Below, piece by piece: positions 55,717 to 64,000 of a DNA stretch of 64,000 nucleotides. Under the pieces are notes generated by a model, which was given only the letters and a program-made list of their open reading frames with translations, was not told the DNA's origin and made no database searches. The position numbers and the translations under genes are program-made. Each line of letters starts with the position of its first letter. The stretch's first letter is position 1. The stretch comes from Reichenbachiella ulvae (lineage in GTDB: Bacteria; Bacteroidota; Bacteroidia; Cytophagales; Cyclobacteriaceae), in contig NZ_JAOYOD010000001.1 of the NCBI RefSeq assembly GCF_025833875.1, forward strand, positions 1,798,001 to 1,862,000. The letters are read 5' to 3'.

Positions 55717-56298
55717 TCAACTCAATGCTTTTTGGATCAAAGCCAAATCACCCACATCATAATTTAATTTAAGCGCCAGATCATGTCCTTTCTCAGTCAT
55801 TTTCCCCCAGGTCTTTTGCACTATATCAATCACCTTTTCATCCGGGTGCTGTGCGGCAAAATCATGAAAGTAAAACTTCAAGAAGACCAAACAAACTACA
55901 TCTTCTAGCTCCTTAGATTCCTGATCGGTTTTCAGCTTTTTCTTATTGACTAGCTCTACAACTTTTGCAATCGAATCCGATCCAAACCCTTCCTCTTCCA
56001 TCAGACTACTTAGAAGCTCACCATGATAGATCTTCAGCATGGTTCTCCACTTCAGGTATCCTTTGCGATCCATGGGATATTCCGATCGGGGAATGTGCCA
56101 ACGTTTAATATGTTGGCCTCTAGCAGCAATTTGAAGTTCAACTGACGGATTTTCTTTATACGTAGTTAGCATTTCAGTCATTCTTCGTCCATATATCCAC
56201 TCTTTCGGAACCTCACTCCCATCAACTATCTCCTTATTTGGGTCCTCAGCGTTGATTTTGTCTATTTTTTCAAAAACAGCATCCACTTTATTGTTCAT
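55717..56298 (-). CDS. DUF4202 protein of the nitrate assimilation island
   Basis: 193 residues. The family pattern is clear: INAEDPNKEIVDGSEVPKEW, ELQIAARGQHIKRWHIPR and EDVVCLVFLKFYFHDFA. Several His and Asp/Glu residues could bind a metal (an HD-like fold is possible), but no reaction is established. DUF4202 genes commonly accompany nirB. Here the gene is divergent from nirB and shares the TACGTA-bearing control region, so co-regulation with nitrite reduction is likely. Confidence 0.85.
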   Translation of the reverse strand: MNNKVDAVFEKIDKINAEDPNKEIVDGSEVPKEWIYGRRMTEMLTTYKENPSVELQIAARGQHIKRWHIPRSEYPMDRKGYLKWRTMLKIYHGELLSSLMEEEGFGSDSIAKVVELVNKKKLKTDQESKELEDVVCLVFLKFYFHDFAAQHPDEKVIDIVQKTWGKMTEKGHDLALKLNYDVGDLALIQKALS

Positions 56299-56369: not shown

Positions 56370-56448
56370 TACGTAGTTATTGTGGTTTTTTAAACATTAA
56401 TTACGTAGTTTTGTTACCATAATTGATTTTAATACGTAGTTTTACGTA
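56370..56448. promoter_or_regulatory. Cluster of four TACGTA palindromes upstream of nirB
   Basis: TACGTA occurs at 56370, 56402, 56433 and 56443, at steps of 32, 31 and 10 bp, close to whole helical turns. The first two share the longer context TTAATTACGTAGTT, and all of the first three continue as TACGTAGTT. The cluster lies between the divergent DUF4202 gene and nirB. A -7-like TAGTTTTG overlaps the second copy (56406-56413). It is a probable operator for the regulator encoded at 60802. Confidence 0.7.
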
Positions 56449-56462
56449 ACAAAAAATTCATC

Positions 56463-58955
56463 ATGGAGAAAATAATTGTAATAGGTAATGGTATGGTTGG
56501 CTATAAGTTTTGTGAAAAACTAAGAGCCAAAGCTGACAAGAACAAATTTGAAATCACAGTTTTTGGAGAAGAACCGCATCCAGCCTACGACAGGGTTCAC
56601 CTTAGCGAATACTTTACCAATCCATCAGTCGAGAACCTGGAGATGGCTCCAAGATCCTGGTACGAAGAAAATGACATTGAATTAATCTCTGGAGAAATGA
56701 TCAATCAGATCGACAGAGTAAACAAAACAGTCACTTCCCACAAGGGCACTACCCTCTCCTATGACAAGCTAATTTTGGCAACCGGGTCCAGTGCTTTTGT
56801 CCCTCCAATCAATGGAGTAGAAAAAGAAGGAGTCTTCGTATATAGAACCATCGAAGATCTGGATGCTATCATTGACTATAGCAAGAAGACAAAAAAAGCA
56901 GCTGTTTTAGGAGGAGGTCTTCTAGGTCTGGAGGCAGCTAAGGCCATGATTGACCTTAAACAAGAAACACACGTCATCGAATTTGCTCCTCGTCTGATGC
57001 CGAGACAGTTGGACGAAGCAGGATCAAATGCCCTCATTACCAAAATGGAAGATTTGGGCTTGACTATTCACCTTAATAAAAACACAAAAAATATCTCAGG
57101 AGAGGAAAAAATGACTGGAATGGAGTTTCAGGATGATTCCGAACTTGATGTAGAAATGCTCGTCATCTCAGCAGGTATCAAACCAAGAGACGAGTTGGCT
57201 ACTGCATGTGGCCTGGCTGTAGGACCAAGAGGAGGTATCGTGGTAAATGATCTGTTGCAAACAGACGACACGAACATTTTTGCAATCGGTGAATGTGCAC
57301 TTCACAAAAACATGATCTACGGATTGGTGGCGCCTGGCTATGAAATGGCCGACGTAGTAGTCAATCAATTGATCGGAGACAATGACAAGGCATTCGAAAG
57401 CTATGACATGTCTACTAAGCTGAAACTAATCGGTGTAGATGTTGCCAGCTTTGGTAATGCCATTTGTGAAAACGAAGCACATAAACCTATTGTTTTTGAA
57501 GACAAGCACGCAGGCATCTATAAGAGAATCAACATCTCGGAGGATGGCCAGCGTCTGCTTGGCGGTATTTTAGTAGGTGAGGCAGAGGCTTACAATATGC
57601 TTTTGCAAGTCACACTCAATGGCATGGCACTCCCTCCTCAACCTGAAGACCTGATCCTCGGTAGCCGTGGCGGAGAGGAAGCCAAAATGGAGCTACCTGA
57701 CACAGCACAAATTTGTTCTTGTGAAAACGTAACCAAAGGAGACATTAGTCAGGCGATCATTGACAATGAATATGAGGATCTGGCAGACGTAAAAGCTTGT
57801 ACCAAAGCCGGCACTGGATGTGGCGCTTGTAACCCGATCGTGAAAGATATTTTCAACGATCAATGGGCAAAAATGGGTAAAACCGTCAAAAACGTAATTT
57901 GCGAGCACTTTGACTACACCCGTCAGGAACTTTTGGACATTATAAAAATCAAAAAGATCCAGGACTACAACCAGTTGTTAGACGAATATGGCAAAGGAGA
58001 CGGCTGTGAAACCTGTCGTCCAGCAGTTGCCTCAATCCTAGCCAGTACCTGGAACGAAATGATCCTTGAAAAAGGAAAAGACGCTATACAAGACACCAAC
58101 GACAAATACCTGGCGAACATTCAGAAAGGTGGCTCCTACTCTGTAGTACCAAGAATCCCTGGAGGAGAAATCACCCCTGATAAATTGATCGTAATCGGTG
58201 AAGTAGCAAAAAAATATGACCTCTACACTAAAATCACAGGAGGTCAACGTATCGACCTGTTTGGTGCACAGGTCCACCAGCTACCAGATATCTGGGAGGA
58301 GCTAATCAATGCTGGTTTTGAAAGCGGACACGCCTATGGCAAATCACTGAGAACAGTAAAAAGCTGCGTAGGTTCGACCTGGTGTAGATACGGTCTGCAC
58401 GACTCGGTATCCTTCGCCATCGAGGTAGAAGAAAGATACAGAGGCCTTCGTTCGCCTCACAAATTGAAAAGTGCGGTATCTGGATGTAGAAGAGAATGTG
58501 CAGAAGCGCAGAGTAAAGATTTTGGCATCATAGCTACTGAGGAAGGCTGGAACCTCTACGTATGTGGAAACGGCGGATCCAATCCACAACACGCCCTTCT
58601 TTTGGCCGGAGACATCGACTCAGAAACCTGTTTGAAATACATCGATCGTTTCTTGATGTTTTATATCCGAACAGCCGAACCACTCAACAGAACTTCTACC
58701 TGGCTGAACAAACTCGAAGGCGGAATAGATTACTTGAAGGAAGTAATTGTTGAAGACAGTTTGGGCATTGGTGAAGAACTAGAAAGAGAAATGGACTTCA
58801 TGATCAACACCTACAAATGTGAATGGAAAGAAGTGGTGAACAATCCAGAATTAAGAAAACGATTCACACACTTCGTCAATACGAGCATTCCAGATCCAAC
58901 TATGAAGTTCGAAGAAATGCGTGGACAGAAAAAACCAGTAGAATGGGGTGCATAA
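56463..58955 (+). CDS. nirB: Assimilatory nitrite reductase [NAD(P)H], large subunit
   Basis: 830 residues. An FAD/NAD-binding reductase part (1-290, IIVIGNGMVGYKFCEKL, GGGLLGLEAAKAM) is followed by two BFD-type 2Fe-2S segments (CSCENV...GTGCGAC and GDGCETCRP), a ferredoxin-like sulfite/nitrite reductase half-domain (about 555-620) and the sirohaem/4Fe-4S domain (SCVGSTWCRYG near 634, SGCRRECAEAQ near 672). It reduces nitrite to ammonium in the cytoplasm with six electrons from NAD(P)H. nirD follows after 37 nt. Confidence 0.95.
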   Translation: MEKIIVIGNGMVGYKFCEKLRAKADKNKFEITVFGEEPHPAYDRVHLSEYFTNPSVENLEMAPRSWYEENDIELISGEMINQIDRVNKTVTSHKGTTLSYDKLILATGSSAFVPPINGVEKEGVFVYRTIEDLDAIIDYSKKTKKAAVLGGGLLGLEAAKAMIDLKQETHVIEFAPRLMPRQLDEAGSNALITKMEDLGLTIHLNKNTKNISGEEKMTGMEFQDDSELDVEMLVISAGIKPRDELATACGLAVGPRGGIVVNDLLQTDDTNIFAIGECALHKNMIYGLVAPGYEMADVVVNQLIGDNDKAFESYDMSTKLKLIGVDVASFGNAICENEAHKPIVFEDKHAGIYKRINISEDGQRLLGGILVGEAEAYNMLLQVTLNGMALPPQPEDLILGSRGGEEAKMELPDTAQICSCENVTKGDISQAIIDNEYEDLADVKACTKAGTGCGACNPIVKDIFNDQWAKMGKTVKNVICEHFDYTRQELLDIIKIKKIQDYNQLLDEYGKGDGCETCRPAVASILASTWNEMILEKGKDAIQDTNDKYLANIQKGGSYSVVPRIPGGEITPDKLIVIGEVAKKYDLYTKITGGQRIDLFGAQVHQLPDIWEELINAGFESGHAYGKSLRTVKSCVGSTWCRYGLHDSVSFAIEVEERYRGLRSPHKLKSAVSGCRRECAEAQSKDFGIIATEEGWNLYVCGNGGSNPQHALLLAGDIDSETCLKYIDRFLMFYIRTAEPLNRTSTWLNKLEGGIDYLKEVIVEDSLGIGEELEREMDFMINTYKCEWKEVVNNPELRKRFTHFVNTSIPDPTMKFEEMRGQKKPVEWGA

Positions 58956-58992
58956 CCCCTTTCTACAAGAGAAATTAGATAAAAAATTCAAG

Positions 58993-59370
58993 ATGACAGA
59001 TACAGTTTTGGAATATAAAAGTGTAAAACCTGAAGAGGTAAAAGAATGGTACAAGGCCGCTGAAGTAGATGCCTTTCCTGAAAATGCTGGAGCAGCTATA
59101 GAATACAAAGGACTGCAGATAGCTGTTTACAATTTCACCAGACGAAGCGAGTGGTTTGCCAGTCAGAATCTTTGCCCTCACAAGAAGCAAATGATTTTGT
59201 CGCGAGGCATGTTAGGCACCGAAGGAGAAGAACCAAAAGTGGCATGCCCTTTCCATAAAAAGACTTTTAGCCTCCAATCCGGCAAAAATCTGAATGGAGA
59301 TGAGTGTGACTTAGCCACTTACCCCGTTAAAATTGAAGACGGGTATGTTTACGTAGGATTTTCACACTAA
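58993..59370 (+). CDS. nirD: Nitrite reductase small subunit, Rieske type
   Basis: 125 residues from the ATG at 58993 (a GTG at 58948 lies inside nirB). It is a Rieske-like domain with both ligand pairs, NLCPHKKQ (C-x-H) and ACPFHKKTF (C-x2-H), so it probably carries a 2Fe-2S cluster, unlike E. coli NirD which lacks these residues. It partners NirB. Confidence 0.92.
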   Translation: MTDTVLEYKSVKPEEVKEWYKAAEVDAFPENAGAAIEYKGLQIAVYNFTRRSEWFASQNLCPHKKQMILSRGMLGTEGEEPKVACPFHKKTFSLQSGKNLNGDECDLATYPVKIEDGYVYVGFSH

Positions 59371-59414
59371 GCTGCGTAATTTCACCTAATATTGCAGTCT
59401 AGACTAGATTATAA

Positions 59415-60794
59415 TTGAGAACTACAAAAACATTAAAACAACTCGGTTACACAGGCCTGGCCTCCTTTATAGGAGTGGTTGCTGCTATTCTCATTGGGCA
59501 ATATTACATACTTACCTATAGTCAGGAGAAGAGTGGTCTGATTGATCAGGAAATCATCTTTATCATTTTAATCTCCGGGTTGATCGCATTGGTGTTTTTT
59601 GGCTTATTATATCCTAAATATCGACAAATTTATGGATCATATAAGCAACTGATCGCCTCTGAAGGTGATGCTAAAACCATGGCTTCTCAGGTTTCGAAAT
59701 TATACGATGAACTGGGCCGTTCCTACCAGGATTTAGAATCTACCAAGCACCATCCCGAAGAACTATCCATATTTATGAAGATGAATATGGATGGTGAGAT
59801 AGAGCATCTTTCGGAGAAGTTTAGGGAAGTGATGGCGCTGGAATCTAGCGATCATGTTGAAAACTTTTACGAATGGCTTCATAGCCAGTCCTATAGAGAA
59901 GATTTTACCTCTCAGGTCAAGGATTTGACTCAACAAAAAGAGTCATGGAACGGAGAGATAAAAGTATGTAATGAAGACGGAGATTTTGTTTGGATGGATT
60001 TGGTCATACAGCCTGTCCCTACCAATACCCGCAAAAACGAATATGCCCTCCTCGTGATCGGAAGAGATGCTACCGACATCATAGAGGCGAAGCAAATGTC
60101 AAGAGAGATCAACTTGGAGTTGGTTGACAAACGCGTAAAAGAACAGCAATATCGATCCGTTTTGATCCTGGAAGGCCAGGAAGAAGAAAGAAAGAGAATA
60201 GCTCAGGAAATCCACGATGGCATTGGCCAAATGCTGACTGGACTCAAACTGAATCTGGAAGGAATCGTGACTTCTAGTTCTCCGCACATGAGACAAAGAA
60301 TGAGTGATGCCAAGCATTTGATGAAAAGCATCATTAAAGAGGTTCGAAGAGTCTCATTTAACCTCGCTCCTAGTAGTCTCGTTGATTTTGGCATTGTGCC
60401 TGCTTTGAAAAAGATAAGTCAGGAAACCACCGCATTGACTACCACCAAAGTAACCTTCACGAACAAAACAGGTTTCATTAATAGATTGGATGGGAATGTT
60501 GAAACCAATCTCTACAGAATCGTTCAAGAAGCTGTAAACAATGGTATTAAATATGCCAAAGCAGACGAGATCAACATTATACTGAATCATACTGTTTCAC
60601 AATTAGAAATCAGAGTTCAGGATAATGGCAAAGGATTTGATATAAAAAAATTGGAAAACGTGGGGCATTTTGGAGCCTCTGGTCATGGTATATATAACAT
60701 GAAAGAAAGAGCTGCCTATGTCAATGCCACCTTTGATATAGAAACGGAAATAGGAAAAGGAACTACCGTGATTATTAAACTACCGTTAACATAA
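59415..60794 (+). CDS. NarX/NreB-like sensor histidine kinase with PAS domain
   Basis: 459 residues from a TTG start. Two N-terminal membrane helices (LASFIGVVAAILIGQYYIL, IIFIILISGLIALVFFGLLY) are separated by only about 15 residues, so there is no periplasmic sensor. A PAS-like domain (about 120-230), HisKA_3 (His near 266 in RIAQEIHDGIGQMLTGL) and HATPase_c (EAVNNGIKYAKA, DNGKGFD, GHGIYNMKERA) follow. It probably senses an internal signal (nitrate, nitrite or redox state) and phosphorylates the regulator 7 nt downstream. Confidence 0.92.
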   Translation: MRTTKTLKQLGYTGLASFIGVVAAILIGQYYILTYSQEKSGLIDQEIIFIILISGLIALVFFGLLYPKYRQIYGSYKQLIASEGDAKTMASQVSKLYDELGRSYQDLESTKHHPEELSIFMKMNMDGEIEHLSEKFREVMALESSDHVENFYEWLHSQSYREDFTSQVKDLTQQKESWNGEIKVCNEDGDFVWMDLVIQPVPTNTRKNEYALLVIGRDATDIIEAKQMSREINLELVDKRVKEQQYRSVLILEGQEEERKRIAQEIHDGIGQMLTGLKLNLEGIVTSSSPHMRQRMSDAKHLMKSIIKEVRRVSFNLAPSSLVDFGIVPALKKISQETTALTTTKVTFTNKTGFINRLDGNVETNLYRIVQEAVNNGIKYAKADEINIILNHTVSQLEIRVQDNGKGFDIKKLENVGHFGASGHGIYNMKERAAYVNATFDIETEIGKGTTVIIKLPLT

Positions 60795-60801
60795 GCCACC
60801 T

Positions 60802-61476
60802 ATGAGTAAAATAAGAGTCATATTAGCTGATGATCACGTCATTGTGAGAAATGGAATTAAAATATTACTGGAAAGTAATGGAGACGTAGACGTGATCGCT
60901 GAGGCTTCTAATGGAGAAGAGGCCCTGGAAAAAGCCCGATTGCTCAAACCAGATATATTAATATCAGACATAAAAATGCCAATCATGAATGGCATAGAAG
61001 CAACAGCCAAACTAAAGGAATATGCTCCTGAGACCAAGGCTTTGATACTATCCATGCATGATGATGAGGAATATATTATCAAATCTATCGAAAGCGGAGC
61101 TGCAGGTTATCTACTCAAAGACACTACAAAAGAGGAATTCTCCAAAGCACTGCATGCTGTTTTGGACGGACAAAAGTATTTCAGCGGGGACATCTCCAAC
61201 ATCCTGGTCAATTCCTACCTGAACATCAAGGATGGAAAGCCAGTAAGCAATAGAAACAATCAGCCTGAAAATGACTACCACATCACCAAAAGAGAAAAGC
61301 AAATCTTACAATTGGTGTATGAGGGCAATAGCAACAAAGACATAGCAGAGCAGCTGGGTAAAAGCGTAAGAACCATCGAAACGCATCGCTTCAACATCAT
61401 GAAGAAATTGGGTGTTTCTAACATCACCGAATTGATCAGAAAGATAGACGCTGAACCCTATATCACAGCTGGATAA
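60802..61476 (+). CDS. NarL/FixJ-type response regulator of the nitrate island
   Basis: 224 residues. A receiver (VILADDHVIVRNGIKILLES, phospho-acceptor in PDILISDIKMPIMNG, Lys in GYLLKDTTKEE) is followed by a LuxR-type HTH (ITKREKQILQLVYEGNSNKD, QLGKSVRTIETHRFNIMKKL). It is encoded between nirBD and the nitrate reductase gene and is the obvious candidate to bind the TACGTA sites at both promoters. Confidence 0.94.
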   Translation: MSKIRVILADDHVIVRNGIKILLESNGDVDVIAEASNGEEALEKARLLKPDILISDIKMPIMNGIEATAKLKEYAPETKALILSMHDDEEYIIKSIESGAAGYLLKDTTKEEFSKALHAVLDGQKYFSGDISNILVNSYLNIKDGKPVSNRNNQPENDYHITKREKQILQLVYEGNSNKDIAEQLGKSVRTIETHRFNIMKKLGVSNITELIRKIDAEPYITAG

Positions 61477-61500
61477 AGAAACCGTCTTAATTAATTATTT

Positions 61501-61536
61501 AAAGGCATTGGTACATATTAGATCAATGCCTTTTTT
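61501..61536 (+). terminator. Terminator after the response regulator
   Basis: AAAGGCATTG pairs with CAATGCCTTT around a 14-nt loop, followed by TTTTCTTTT. It separates the nirBD-kinase-regulator unit from the nitrate reductase transcript. Confidence 0.88.
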
Positions 61537-61602
61537 CTTTTACTACCTCCTAATTCCTGGTTAGAGCCCTACTACTTAAAATTTGGGCTGCCAATCGATA
61601 AT

Positions 61603-61673
61603 TACGTAGAACAAGACCGTTTTTATGACTTTTCGCATATTTATTACGTAGTTGCAAACATATTTTTTACGTA
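61603..61673. promoter_or_regulatory. Cluster of three TACGTA palindromes upstream of the nitrate reductase
   Basis: TACGTA at 61603, 61645 and 61668 (steps 42 and 23 bp), in contexts ATAATTACGTAGAAC and TTATTACGTAGTTGC like those before nirB. The last copy is centred about 46 bp before the predicted start of transcription, a usual activator position. Confidence 0.7.
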
Positions 61674-61702
61674 TCAATACTTATTTTATAATTGACTTAC
61701 TG

Positions 61703-61710
61703 TATATTTG
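61703..61710 (+). promoter_or_regulatory. -7 element of the nitrate reductase promoter
   Basis: TATATTTG matches TAnnTTTG exactly. The -33 position (61681-61683) reads TTA, without the usual TTG, which fits a promoter needing an activator. The leader to the ATG is about 60 nt. Confidence 0.6.
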
Positions 61711-61775
61711 TAATCATAGAAACAGACAGCAAATTGTCTGTTGAATAACGAAGCAACTACTTATTCAAATTCAAT

Positions 61776-64000
61776 ATGAGTTCTACTTTCAAATACCGAA
61801 ATAGCACTAAGGCGAAAACTACTTGTTCATATTGTGGGGTCGGCTGTGGTATAGAGGTTTCAGTTGATAAGAAAGGCAAAATAGAACTCGAAGGTATAGA
61901 GGACCATCCCGTCAGTAGAGGTATGCTATGTTCGAAGGGCAGAAACCTGAACTACGTAGTTCAAGATCAGACCGACAGACTGATGTATCCACAGATGAGA
62001 TGGTCCAAATACCACCCACTTGAAAGAGTAGACTGGGATACGGCAATAGACCGTGCTGCAGCTGTATTCAAAACCTTCATCGAAAAGCATGGGCCGGATT
62101 CAGTAGGCTTCTATGTTTCGGGGCAATGTTTGACAGAGGAATATTATCTAGTCAACAAGCTGACCAAAGGCTATATAGGTACTAACAATGTGGACACCAA
62201 CAGCCGACTATGTATGAGTTCGGCGGTGATGGGCTATGTCAAAACACTGGGAGAAGATTCAGTCCCGATTTCATATGAAGACATAGAATTAGCGGACACT
62301 TTTCTAATCGCTGGAGCCAACCCTGCATGGTGTCACCCTATCCTTTTTAGAAGAATAGAGGCGCACAAAGAGAAAAATCCTGACACAAAAATCATCGTCA
62401 TTGATCCTCGGGTTACAGACAGTTGTTCATTGGCAGATCTACATCTGCAATTGAGACCAGGTACAGACATTACTCTGCTACAGGCCATTGGACGAGTATT
62501 GATTGAAGAGGGCAATATCGATTTAGACTTTATTCAAAATCATGCAGATGGTTTTGACAGTTACAAAGAAGAAGTAATGAGCACCTCACTAGAGGATGCT
62601 TCTAAAATATGTGATGTTAGCATCGACGACATCAAACTAGCTGCCAGCTACATCGGCAATGCAAAGGCATACTTGTCCATGTGGACTATGGGGCTCAACC
62701 AAAGTACGCAAGGAGTCAACAACAACCTGGCCCTGATCAACCTTAATTTGATCACCGGTCAAATTGGCAAACCAGGCGCAGGACCATTCTCTCTTACGGG
62801 ACAGCCCAATGCCATGGGAGGACGTGAGGTGGGTGGTATGGCATCCTTACTCGCTGCGCACAGAAAGCAAGCAAGTCCAGAAGACAGACAAGAAGTAGCC
62901 AACTTTTGGGGAGTGGATTCAGTCCCTGACAAGCCAGGCCTGACTGCCACGCAAATGTTCGACGCATTGGACTCAGGTGAGCTCAAAGCCATTTGGATCA
63001 TATGCACCAACCCATCGGTAAGTATGCCTGATGCCAATTTGGTAGATCGAGCCATGAAGAAAGCCAAATTTGTAGTGGTTCAGGACATTTCTAGTCGATC
63101 GGATACTGTCAAATATGCTGATCTGATTTTACCTGCAGCAGGATGGCTGGAAAAGGAAGGTACGATGACGAATTCTGAACGTCGCATTTCTTATTTGCCC
63201 AAAATGGTTGACGCTCCAGGAGAAGCATTGGCAGATTCAGAAATCCTGATTCGTTTTGCCAAAAAAATGGGCTATCCGGGATTTGAATTCAAAAACGAGG
63301 AAGAAGTATATAAGGAACACTGTCAACTCACGAAAGGTACCAATATTGACATTTCGGGGCTGAACTATGACCGACTGAAAAATGAAGGGAGTGTACAATG
63401 GCCTGTACCTAGTGAGACACACCCTGGAACCCCTCGCCTATTTACCGACAAGAAATTTTATACACCCAACCAAAAAGCTCAAATCCTAACAACGGGCGTT
63501 TCCAATGAAGCAGATATGCTTTCTCAGGATTTTCCACTGGTTTTGACCACTGGTAGAATCAGAGATCAATGGCATACCATGACGCGCTCTGGCAAAGTCA
63601 GCAAGCTAAACAAGCATATCTCCAAACCTTATTTGGAGATTCATCCGTCAGATGCAGCAGAACGCGGAATTAAAAATGGCGATTCGGTATTGATATCTGG
63701 TGCCAGAGGAGAGGTGAGAGTAAATGCTACAGTTACCGAAAACATAAAAAAGGGAGTTGTTTTCCTCCCTATGCATTGGGGAAAGTTGATGGGTAGCGAG
63801 TTCGGAAGAGCCAACAACCTCACCAACAAAGCCTTTGACCCAATCTCCAAACAGCCTGGGTTTAAATACTCTGCAGTAGAGGTCAAAAAATACAAAAAGC
63901 CAAAACAAAAAATAGTGATCGTGGGTGCTGGAGCAGCGGCTTATCGCTTCTTGAACACCTACCGTTCGCTCAATGAAGAAGACGAAATCCACGTTTTCTC
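61776..64000 (+). CDS. nasA: Assimilatory nitrate reductase (molybdopterin), fused to FAD/NAD-binding domain, partial
   Basis: 741 residues are visible and the frame is open at the window end. The N-terminal 4Fe-4S site is Cys17, Cys20, Cys24 and Cys52 (CSYCGVGC, GMLCSKG), and the Mo ligand is Cys146 in NSRLCMSSAV. Bis-MGD-binding stretches follow (LIAGANPAWCHP, IIVIDPR, GQIGKPGAGPFSLTGQ) and a dinucleotide-binding C-terminal domain (LTTGRIRDQWHTMTRSGKVS). At about residue 707 a basic linker (VEVKKYKKPKQK) leads into a Rossmann motif, IVIVGAGAAAYRFLN, resembling the NirB reductase part. So nitrate reductase and its NAD(P)H-oxidising module are probably one polypeptide. It reduces nitrate to nitrite. 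Confidence 0.93.
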   Translation, partial: MSSTFKYRNSTKAKTTCSYCGVGCGIEVSVDKKGKIELEGIEDHPVSRGMLCSKGRNLNYVVQDQTDRLMYPQMRWSKYHPLERVDWDTAIDRAAAVFKTFIEKHGPDSVGFYVSGQCLTEEYYLVNKLTKGYIGTNNVDTNSRLCMSSAVMGYVKTLGEDSVPISYEDIELADTFLIAGANPAWCHPILFRRIEAHKEKNPDTKIIVIDPRVTDSCSLADLHLQLRPGTDITLLQAIGRVLIEEGNIDLDFIQNHADGFDSYKEEVMSTSLEDASKICDVSIDDIKLAASYIGNAKAYLSMWTMGLNQSTQGVNNNLALINLNLITGQIGKPGAGPFSLTGQPNAMGGREVGGMASLLAAHRKQASPEDRQEVANFWGVDSVPDKPGLTATQMFDALDSGELKAIWIICTNPSVSMPDANLVDRAMKKAKFVVVQDISSRSDTVKYADLILPAAGWLEKEGTMTNSERRISYLPKMVDAPGEALADSEILIRFAKKMGYPGFEFKNEEEVYKEHCQLTKGTNIDISGLNYDRLKNEGSVQWPVPSETHPGTPRLFTDKKFYTPNQKAQILTTGVSNEADMLSQDFPLVLTTGRIRDQWHTMTRSGKVSKLNKHISKPYLEIHPSDAAERGIKNGDSVLISGARGEVRVNATVTENIKKGVVFLPMHWGKLMGSEFGRANNLTNKAFDPISKQPGFKYSAVEVKKYKKPKQKIVIVGAGAAAYRFLNTYRSLNEEDEIHVF

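Follow-up and report, generated by a model that had tools for sequence, protein, structure and literature searches.

TACGTA-based inverted repeats as candidate operators of a NarL-type regulator at nitrate genes of Reichenbachiella ulvae and related Bacteroidota

Two-component systems for nitrate have already been catalogued in Bacteroidota as narHK/narRR, and the main text of that source remarks on the absence of HAMP and GAF domains from their kinases (PMC8199190). Here we analyze a 64,000-nucleotide stretch of the Reichenbachiella ulvae genome (the window) in which a HisKA_3 histidine kinase (59415-60794) and a NarL-type response regulator (60802-61476) are located between nirBD and nas, as a sequence-only reading of the window had stated, and in which the palindrome TACGTA is clustered before both nirB and nas. 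The narHK/narRR systems, as presented in that main text, resemble the window in having a kinase core, in some cases with PAS, and no HAMP or GAF, with the regulator and nitrate genes nearby (PMC8199190); the window's kinase likewise consists of a kinase core with PAS, its Pfam matches being only to PAS, HisKA_3, and HATPase families. In contrast to the catalogued kinases, which have a periplasmic nitrate-sensor domain with a P-box, the window's kinase carries no such domain and lacks PilJ. The same source uses an Indibacter record (ALWO02000023) with the contig number of one of our loci (L187), and the words operator, promoter, heptamer, 7-2-7, and DNA binding are absent from its main text (PMC8199190).

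The locus is also like the NarX-NarL and NarQ-NarP systems of Escherichia coli in its Response_reg plus GerE regulator, its HisKA_3 kinase, and its nitrate genes. The window's proteins nonetheless score far under the NCBIfam cut-offs for NarL, NarP, NarX, and NarQ (regulator against NarL, 146.1 bits versus 250; kinase against NarX, 54.8 bits versus 578), and the regulator is assigned to the NarL/FixJ type by its domains (PF00072, 93.1 bits; PF00196, 69.9 bits). NarP and HcpR motifs of other groups are covered in PMC1274295, and no title or abstract among the literature matches listed concerns a Bacteroidota nitrate operator of the present form. This suggests an operator that is new within a known kind of system, the two-component system itself being already known. 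We consider it quite likely, from comparative evidence, that the TACGTA clusters are operators of the regulator, which would bind as a dimer on a 16-bp repeat and most likely activate under nitrate.

Clustered TACGTA sites and their 16-bp unit

Before nirB (ATG at 56463), four TACGTA sites start at 56370, 56402, 56433, and 56443, spanning 79 bp in steps of 32, 31, and 10 bp; before nas (ATG at 61776), three start at 61603, 61645, and 61668, spanning 71 bp in steps of 42 and 23 bp. The site numbers, spans, and steps agree with the sequence-only reading, whose chance rate of about one site per 4 kb was too high (recomputed, about one per 15 kb). The window contains 13 TACGTA against 4.26 expected, with a maximum of 9 among 100 shuffles, the six further sites lying within open reading frames (ORFs; 51947, 52043, 56159, 58557, 59350, and 61953), and 0 of 300 first-order Markov windows had four sites in 79 bp or three in 71 bp. 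The seven upstream sites are real and far above chance. They are listed here with two candidate promoter boxes identified by their match to TAnnTTTG, which we take to be the Bacteroidota -7 consensus:

56370..56375, no strand: TACGTA site 1 before nirB, 30 bp from a -7-like box
56402..56407, no strand: TACGTA site 2 before nirB, overlapping the -7-like box
56406..56413, + strand: TAGTTTTG, match to the presumed -7 consensus; tentative nirB promoter
56433..56448, no strand: predicted 16-bp operator TACGTAGTTTTACGTA, with nirB sites 3 and 4 as its halves
61603..61608, no strand: TACGTA site before nas
61645..61650, no strand: TACGTA site before nas
61668..61683, no strand: predicted 16-bp operator TACGTATCAATACTTA before nas, the third nas TACGTA being the left half of the inverted repeat
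61703..61710, + strand: TATATTTG, -7-like box matching the presumed consensus, 19 bp after the nas 16-mer

The flank said to be common to the sites, AATTACGTAGTT, matches exactly only at 56370 and 56402, two of the seven sites; flank analysis and a reading of upstream regions ruled it out as a general feature. Following the offset and flank analysis, the hexamer was also replaced as the entire operator; these comparisons favor a 16-bp inverted repeat, TAMGTA-N4-TACKTA, whose copies follow one another in phase with the helix. In nirB upstream regions of 35 genera (one genome per genus), there are 96 TACGTA against a shuffle mean of 3.28; site-to-site offsets show a sharp peak at 10 bp and further groups at 20-24, 30-33, and 40-43 bp, and periodicity is strongest at 10.5-10.75 bp (R 0.79-0.80). 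Offset 10 likewise stands out when incomplete matches to TACGTA are scored (3.09 of 6 letters versus 1.30-2.13 elsewhere, offsets 6-44), and TACGTA and TACTTA/TAAGTA half-sites lie in one frame; from these peaks and the shared frame we infer the 16-bp unit. The repeat is present in 60 of 66 nirB upstream regions and its inner core, GTA-N4-TAC, in 64 of 66. Two Belliella regions (G170 and G192) have ladders of TAAGTA-N4-TACTTA, with half-sites of the TAAGTA/TACTTA kind. The 7-2-7 operator of NarL is likewise a 16-bp two-fold element with 10 bp between half-sites, and two inverted half-sites over 16 bp are found at 56433-56448 and 61668-61683. The NarL heptamer is TACYNMT; the half-site TAMGTA/TACKTA differs in having G rather than C/T at position 4 and an outer C that may be A.

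In the mechanism that we propose, the phosphorylated regulator would bind as a dimer to TAMGTA-N4-TACKTA, with 10 bp between half-sites, and one or more units, of which some are degenerate and keep a single clear TACGTA half, would lie on one helix face upstream of nirBD, nas, porin-nrtABCD, and narK. The unit nearest nas would stand at a class-II-like 19 bp from its TAnnTTTG box, a distance from which it follows that the regulator most likely activates when nitrate is present. Across loci, mostly regulator-positive ones, 55 TAnnTTTG boxes start at most 62 bp downstream of 387 strand-wise 16-mers, and 44 of the 55 are at 10 (15 boxes), 17-20, 29-31, or 39-40 bp, where the expectation is 0.30 per position; these bins were picked after the data were seen, and related species count more than once. 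Such distances would fit a helically phased activator, with 17-20 bp as the class II place.

As a separate observation, the start of the predicted nas mRNA (61721-61742) can form an 8-bp stem with a 6-nucleotide loop (z -3.58); a 6- to 8-bp stem of other sequence occurs in five of six further Reichenbachiella leaders (z -1.70 to -3.59) and none in L045 (z -0.03), as if structure were kept rather than sequence.

Co-occurrence of the sites with the regulator

Among 196 genomes of the family, NirB is present in 69, the regulator (E≤1e-55) in 69, and both in 65; among 325 genomes of the class, 15 have NirB. In the 300 bp before nirB, TACGTA is present in 67 of 69 genomes that have a linked regulator and in 0 of 11 that have none (Fisher 7e-12; by genus, 37 of 38 versus 0 of 7, 1.8e-7; phylogeny is ignored in both). 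The regulator-positive set of 69 is made up of 62 of the 65 genomes from the family, plus G002, G005, and G006, and the class genomes G283, G318, G422, and G484; left out were G061 and G121, whose nirB matches are truncated, and G066, with under 200 bp upstream, though four sites were seen. The two exceptions are the Belliella genomes with ladders. With TACGTA counted up to 300 bp upstream, coding sequence included, the porin gene (23 of 32 versus 0 of 8) and narK2 (13 of 19 versus 0 of 8) behave likewise, so the enrichment before orthologous nitrate genes that had been anticipated is borne out, and the proposal that the neighboring NarL-type regulator binds TACGTA gains comparative support. 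Intergenic TACGTA also stands directly before the kinase gene at L052, L053, L054, L056, and L058; a broader count before that gene (7 of 11) was set aside because the 300-bp stretch covers nirD coding sequence. Sites occur outside the family as well (L058, L207, L229, L232, L253, L255, L260, and L262), and they are kept in six genomes whose fetched stretch has no regulator (G098, G119, G127, G075, G066, and G109).

In three genomes (G040, G046, and G502), the regulator linked to nirB shows 39-50% identity, and TACGTA is missing before nirB. These regulators group in a clade of their own (99/93; the G502 branch is long) and read DNHRA (G040 and G046) or ANQRA (G502) in the recognition helix, where site-bearing loci have ETHRF in most cases and ESHRF, EVHRF, EAHRF, ETHRA, or ETQRF in some; from a regulator-NarL alignment, we take these residues to be equivalent to DNA-contacting positions of NarL. 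The kinases of these three genomes (492, 474, and 494 amino acids [aa]) are shorter than the 591- to 605-aa homologues. Where the regulator occurs without NirB, a related regulator adjoins an ammonium transporter and TACGTA in G152 and G181, the regulator lies amid nine intergenic TACGTA in G169, no intergenic TACGTA was found on the stretches of G434 and G511, and the contig of G089 is too short for judging sites.

Two side observations concern related regulators. At L265:7355-11495 and L267:885-5032, a related kinase-regulator pair adjoins an ammonium transporter with TACGTA sites in between, possibly a sister system for ammonium. In Parapedobacter tibetensis (Sphingobacteriaceae; L192), the regulator groups with those of Cyclobacteriaceae and nirB has TACGTA sites, which suggests that regulator and operator were transferred together.

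Within the R. ulvae genome, TACGTA pairs 4-34 bp apart number 8 versus 11 for a reversed-word control. The raw count is not above control and was dropped as proof in favor of location: all eight pairs are at nitrogen (nitrate or ammonium) genes, with three before nirB, one before nas, one each before the gene for a CRP-family regulator followed by narK, the porin-nrtABCD cluster, and a second narK, and one some 0.4 kb ahead of an amt gene that has a glutamine synthetase gene nearby (names verified by Pfam and NCBIfam). TAMGTA-N4-TACKTA occurs 7 times versus 2 for the control, five of them at nitrogen genes; the 16-mers at 816201 and 3146750 are probably chance, no nitrogen gene being recognized in their 3-kb contexts (L238 and L240). 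Of the earlier proposal of a TACGTA operator before nirB and nas, the enrichment stands; the unit is better described as 16 bp, the targets in the organism's own genome are wider (nitrate uptake, ammonium transport, and the CRP-family regulator), and G040, G046, and G502 have no sites. In 59 genomes (R. ulvae and relatives), exact TACGTA-N4-TACGTA outnumbers the reversed word 41 to 7 in those 17 genomes with a regulator match at E≤1e-62 and 17 to 13 in the other 42, with six of the latter 17 occurrences in G018 alone. One 16-mer lies about 0.26 kb upstream of a gene in the nitrate cluster (L041:3234-5534) whose product joins an ammonium transporter to a C-terminal SpoIIE/SiaA-type phosphatase domain.

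Other candidate binders and evidence against the proposed regulator

That a CRP/FNR-type protein encoded beside narK (G000 3,943,039-3,943,746) binds the sites instead is quite improbable. A 5-N4-5 FNR-like geometry would also fit TAMGTA-N4-TACKTA, the protein's domains are cNMP_binding and HTH_Crp_2, its own promoter has a perfect 16-mer (TACGTAGTTATACGTA) ending 9 bp before its ORF, and an HcpR2-type motif, GTAACnnnnGTTAC, appears in PMC1274295. Its distribution argues otherwise: a close orthologue (E≤1e-100) is found only in G000-G007, G014, and G026 of the 59 genomes, nirB sites are present in G019, G022, G031, G032, and G035, all without a match at E≤1e-30, and in six of seven class-level genomes lacking the regulator the nir/nas stretch encodes a relative from the CRP family (31-50% identity) but no TACGTA precedes nirB. 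The candidate was rejected on this co-occurrence, a verdict that applies to the nitrate-linked CRP-family protein only, other CRP paralogues not having been traced. Co-occurrence could not separate two proteins that are always inherited together, so an unlinked third regulator that merely accompanies the two-component system might be the binder; this too is improbable, given that the regulator gene and the genes with sites usually share one stretch, that the kinase gene is preceded by intergenic sites at five loci, and that regulators of the diverged clade accompany an absence of sites. Least credible of all is that TACGTA, the SnaBI sequence, is here an AT-rich or methylation/restriction-type word, or that the sites reflect shared ancestry without function. 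The pair count in R. ulvae, which does not exceed its control, would suit such an account, which is already disfavored by the placement of all eight pairs at nitrogen genes, by the excess and 10-bp phasing across 35 genera, and by the lack of TACGTA from sequence of 66-82% AT upstream of nirB in the 11 genomes without the regulator.

Several observations weigh against the two-component regulator as the activating binder. At nirB, the perfect 16-mer ends 14 bp short of the ATG, a position poorly suited to activating an upstream promoter; the candidate nirB box overlaps the second TACGTA, and transcription from it would begin ahead of the 16-mer, so that nirB may be controlled by a more complex or a repressing element. 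At nas, TACGTA lies within 300 bp in just 7 of 25 regulator-positive loci (0 of 11 without the regulator), and nas sits inside an operon at several loci. By E-value alone, G040, G046, and G502 count as regulator-positive, giving 67 of 72; they were set apart by tree and helix post hoc, with the result already known. The E residue of the helix is insufficient, G511 having ETHKT with no nitrate genes or sites recognized on its stretch, and the regulator's top NCBIfam match is MctR (200.6 of 300), not NarL. Finally, G018 with six exact 16-mers and G030 with two have best regulator matches of just 1.6e-41 and 9.2e-48, so other regulators may use the motif.

Separately, exact units in G018, which lacks an orthologue of this regulator, lie at L155:4981-5020 and L156:4355-4370, one of them near another kinase-regulator pair, and the motif may be shared by a regulator paralogue.

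Genes of the region and a possible split nitrate sensor

The genes of the nir-nas region are as follows:

56463..58955, + strand: nirB, nitrite reductase large subunit (TIGR02374, 1063.4 bits; cut-off 578.35)
58993..59370, + strand: nirD, nitrite reductase small subunit (TIGR02378, 99.9 bits; cut-off 74.65)
59415..60794, + strand: histidine kinase (PAS, HisKA_3, HATPase_c) of narHK type, without the PilJ sensor domain of longer homologues
60802..61476, + strand: NarL/FixJ-type response regulator (receiver plus GerE), proposed operator binder from Pfam, NarL alignment, and co-occurrence
61776..64000, + strand: nas, molybdopterin oxidoreductase, extending past the window end (1180 aa in the genome, L039)

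The nas product is under the cut-offs of the 25 NCBIfam families shown (best Fdh-alpha, 609 of 666, then NasC, 544 of 1100), and its name therefore rests on context. Directly after nas, one protein combines a nitrite/sulfite reductase ferredoxin-like half domain with a C-terminal rubredoxin domain (L039:9448-10860), and a DUF4202 protein (window 55717-56298, - strand) is encoded divergently from nirB and near nirB in several relatives.

The kinase has about 11 residues between two membrane helices predicted from hydropathy. In seven of eight genomes of the genus Reichenbachiella, a short kinase (457-460 aa) without PilJ is accompanied by a separate PilJ protein encoded with nitrate-uptake genes, after nrtD in six genomes and after a porin gene in G004; in the eighth, G006, the kinase is 595 aa with PilJ, and all PilJ matches are in ORFs of at least 599 aa. 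Homologous kinases match PilJ of Pfam above the cut-off in L046 and L050 and below it in L058. Nitrate-binding PilJ domains have the McpN N-box [IVL]-[ND]-x-A-G-x-Q-R-M-L-[ST]-Q, as given in PMC6381276; it is exact in five of eight homologous kinases scanned (L046, L050, L051, L053, and L057), and the stand-alone PilJ protein of R. ulvae has S for A (INISGRQRMLSQ). This protein further differs from the McpN and NarQ PilJ receptors in that no kinase or chemotaxis domain was found in it and its gene follows nrtD. A PDB sequence search with it returned just a weak McpN match (E 0.13), and Foldseek alone gave no match at E≤0.001. We put about even chances on a split nitrate sensor in Reichenbachiella, in which the kinase would have lost PilJ and kept both helices, and the separate PilJ membrane protein would sense nitrate in trans. 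That protein would be encoded behind nrtD in an uptake operon controlled by the regulator via TACGTA sites, and, if true, the split sensor would tie nitrate sensing to transporter expression.

The DNA target of the nitrate-sensing kinases already catalogued in this phylum was not found in the literature matches listed, and the candidate operator offers a testable operator and regulon for nitrate assimilation there. It would allow nitrate-regulated genomes to be predicted from sequence alone, provides a series of naturally occurring recognition helices and operators from which LuxR/NarL-type specificity could be worked out, and brings to light a possible in-trans nitrate sensor.

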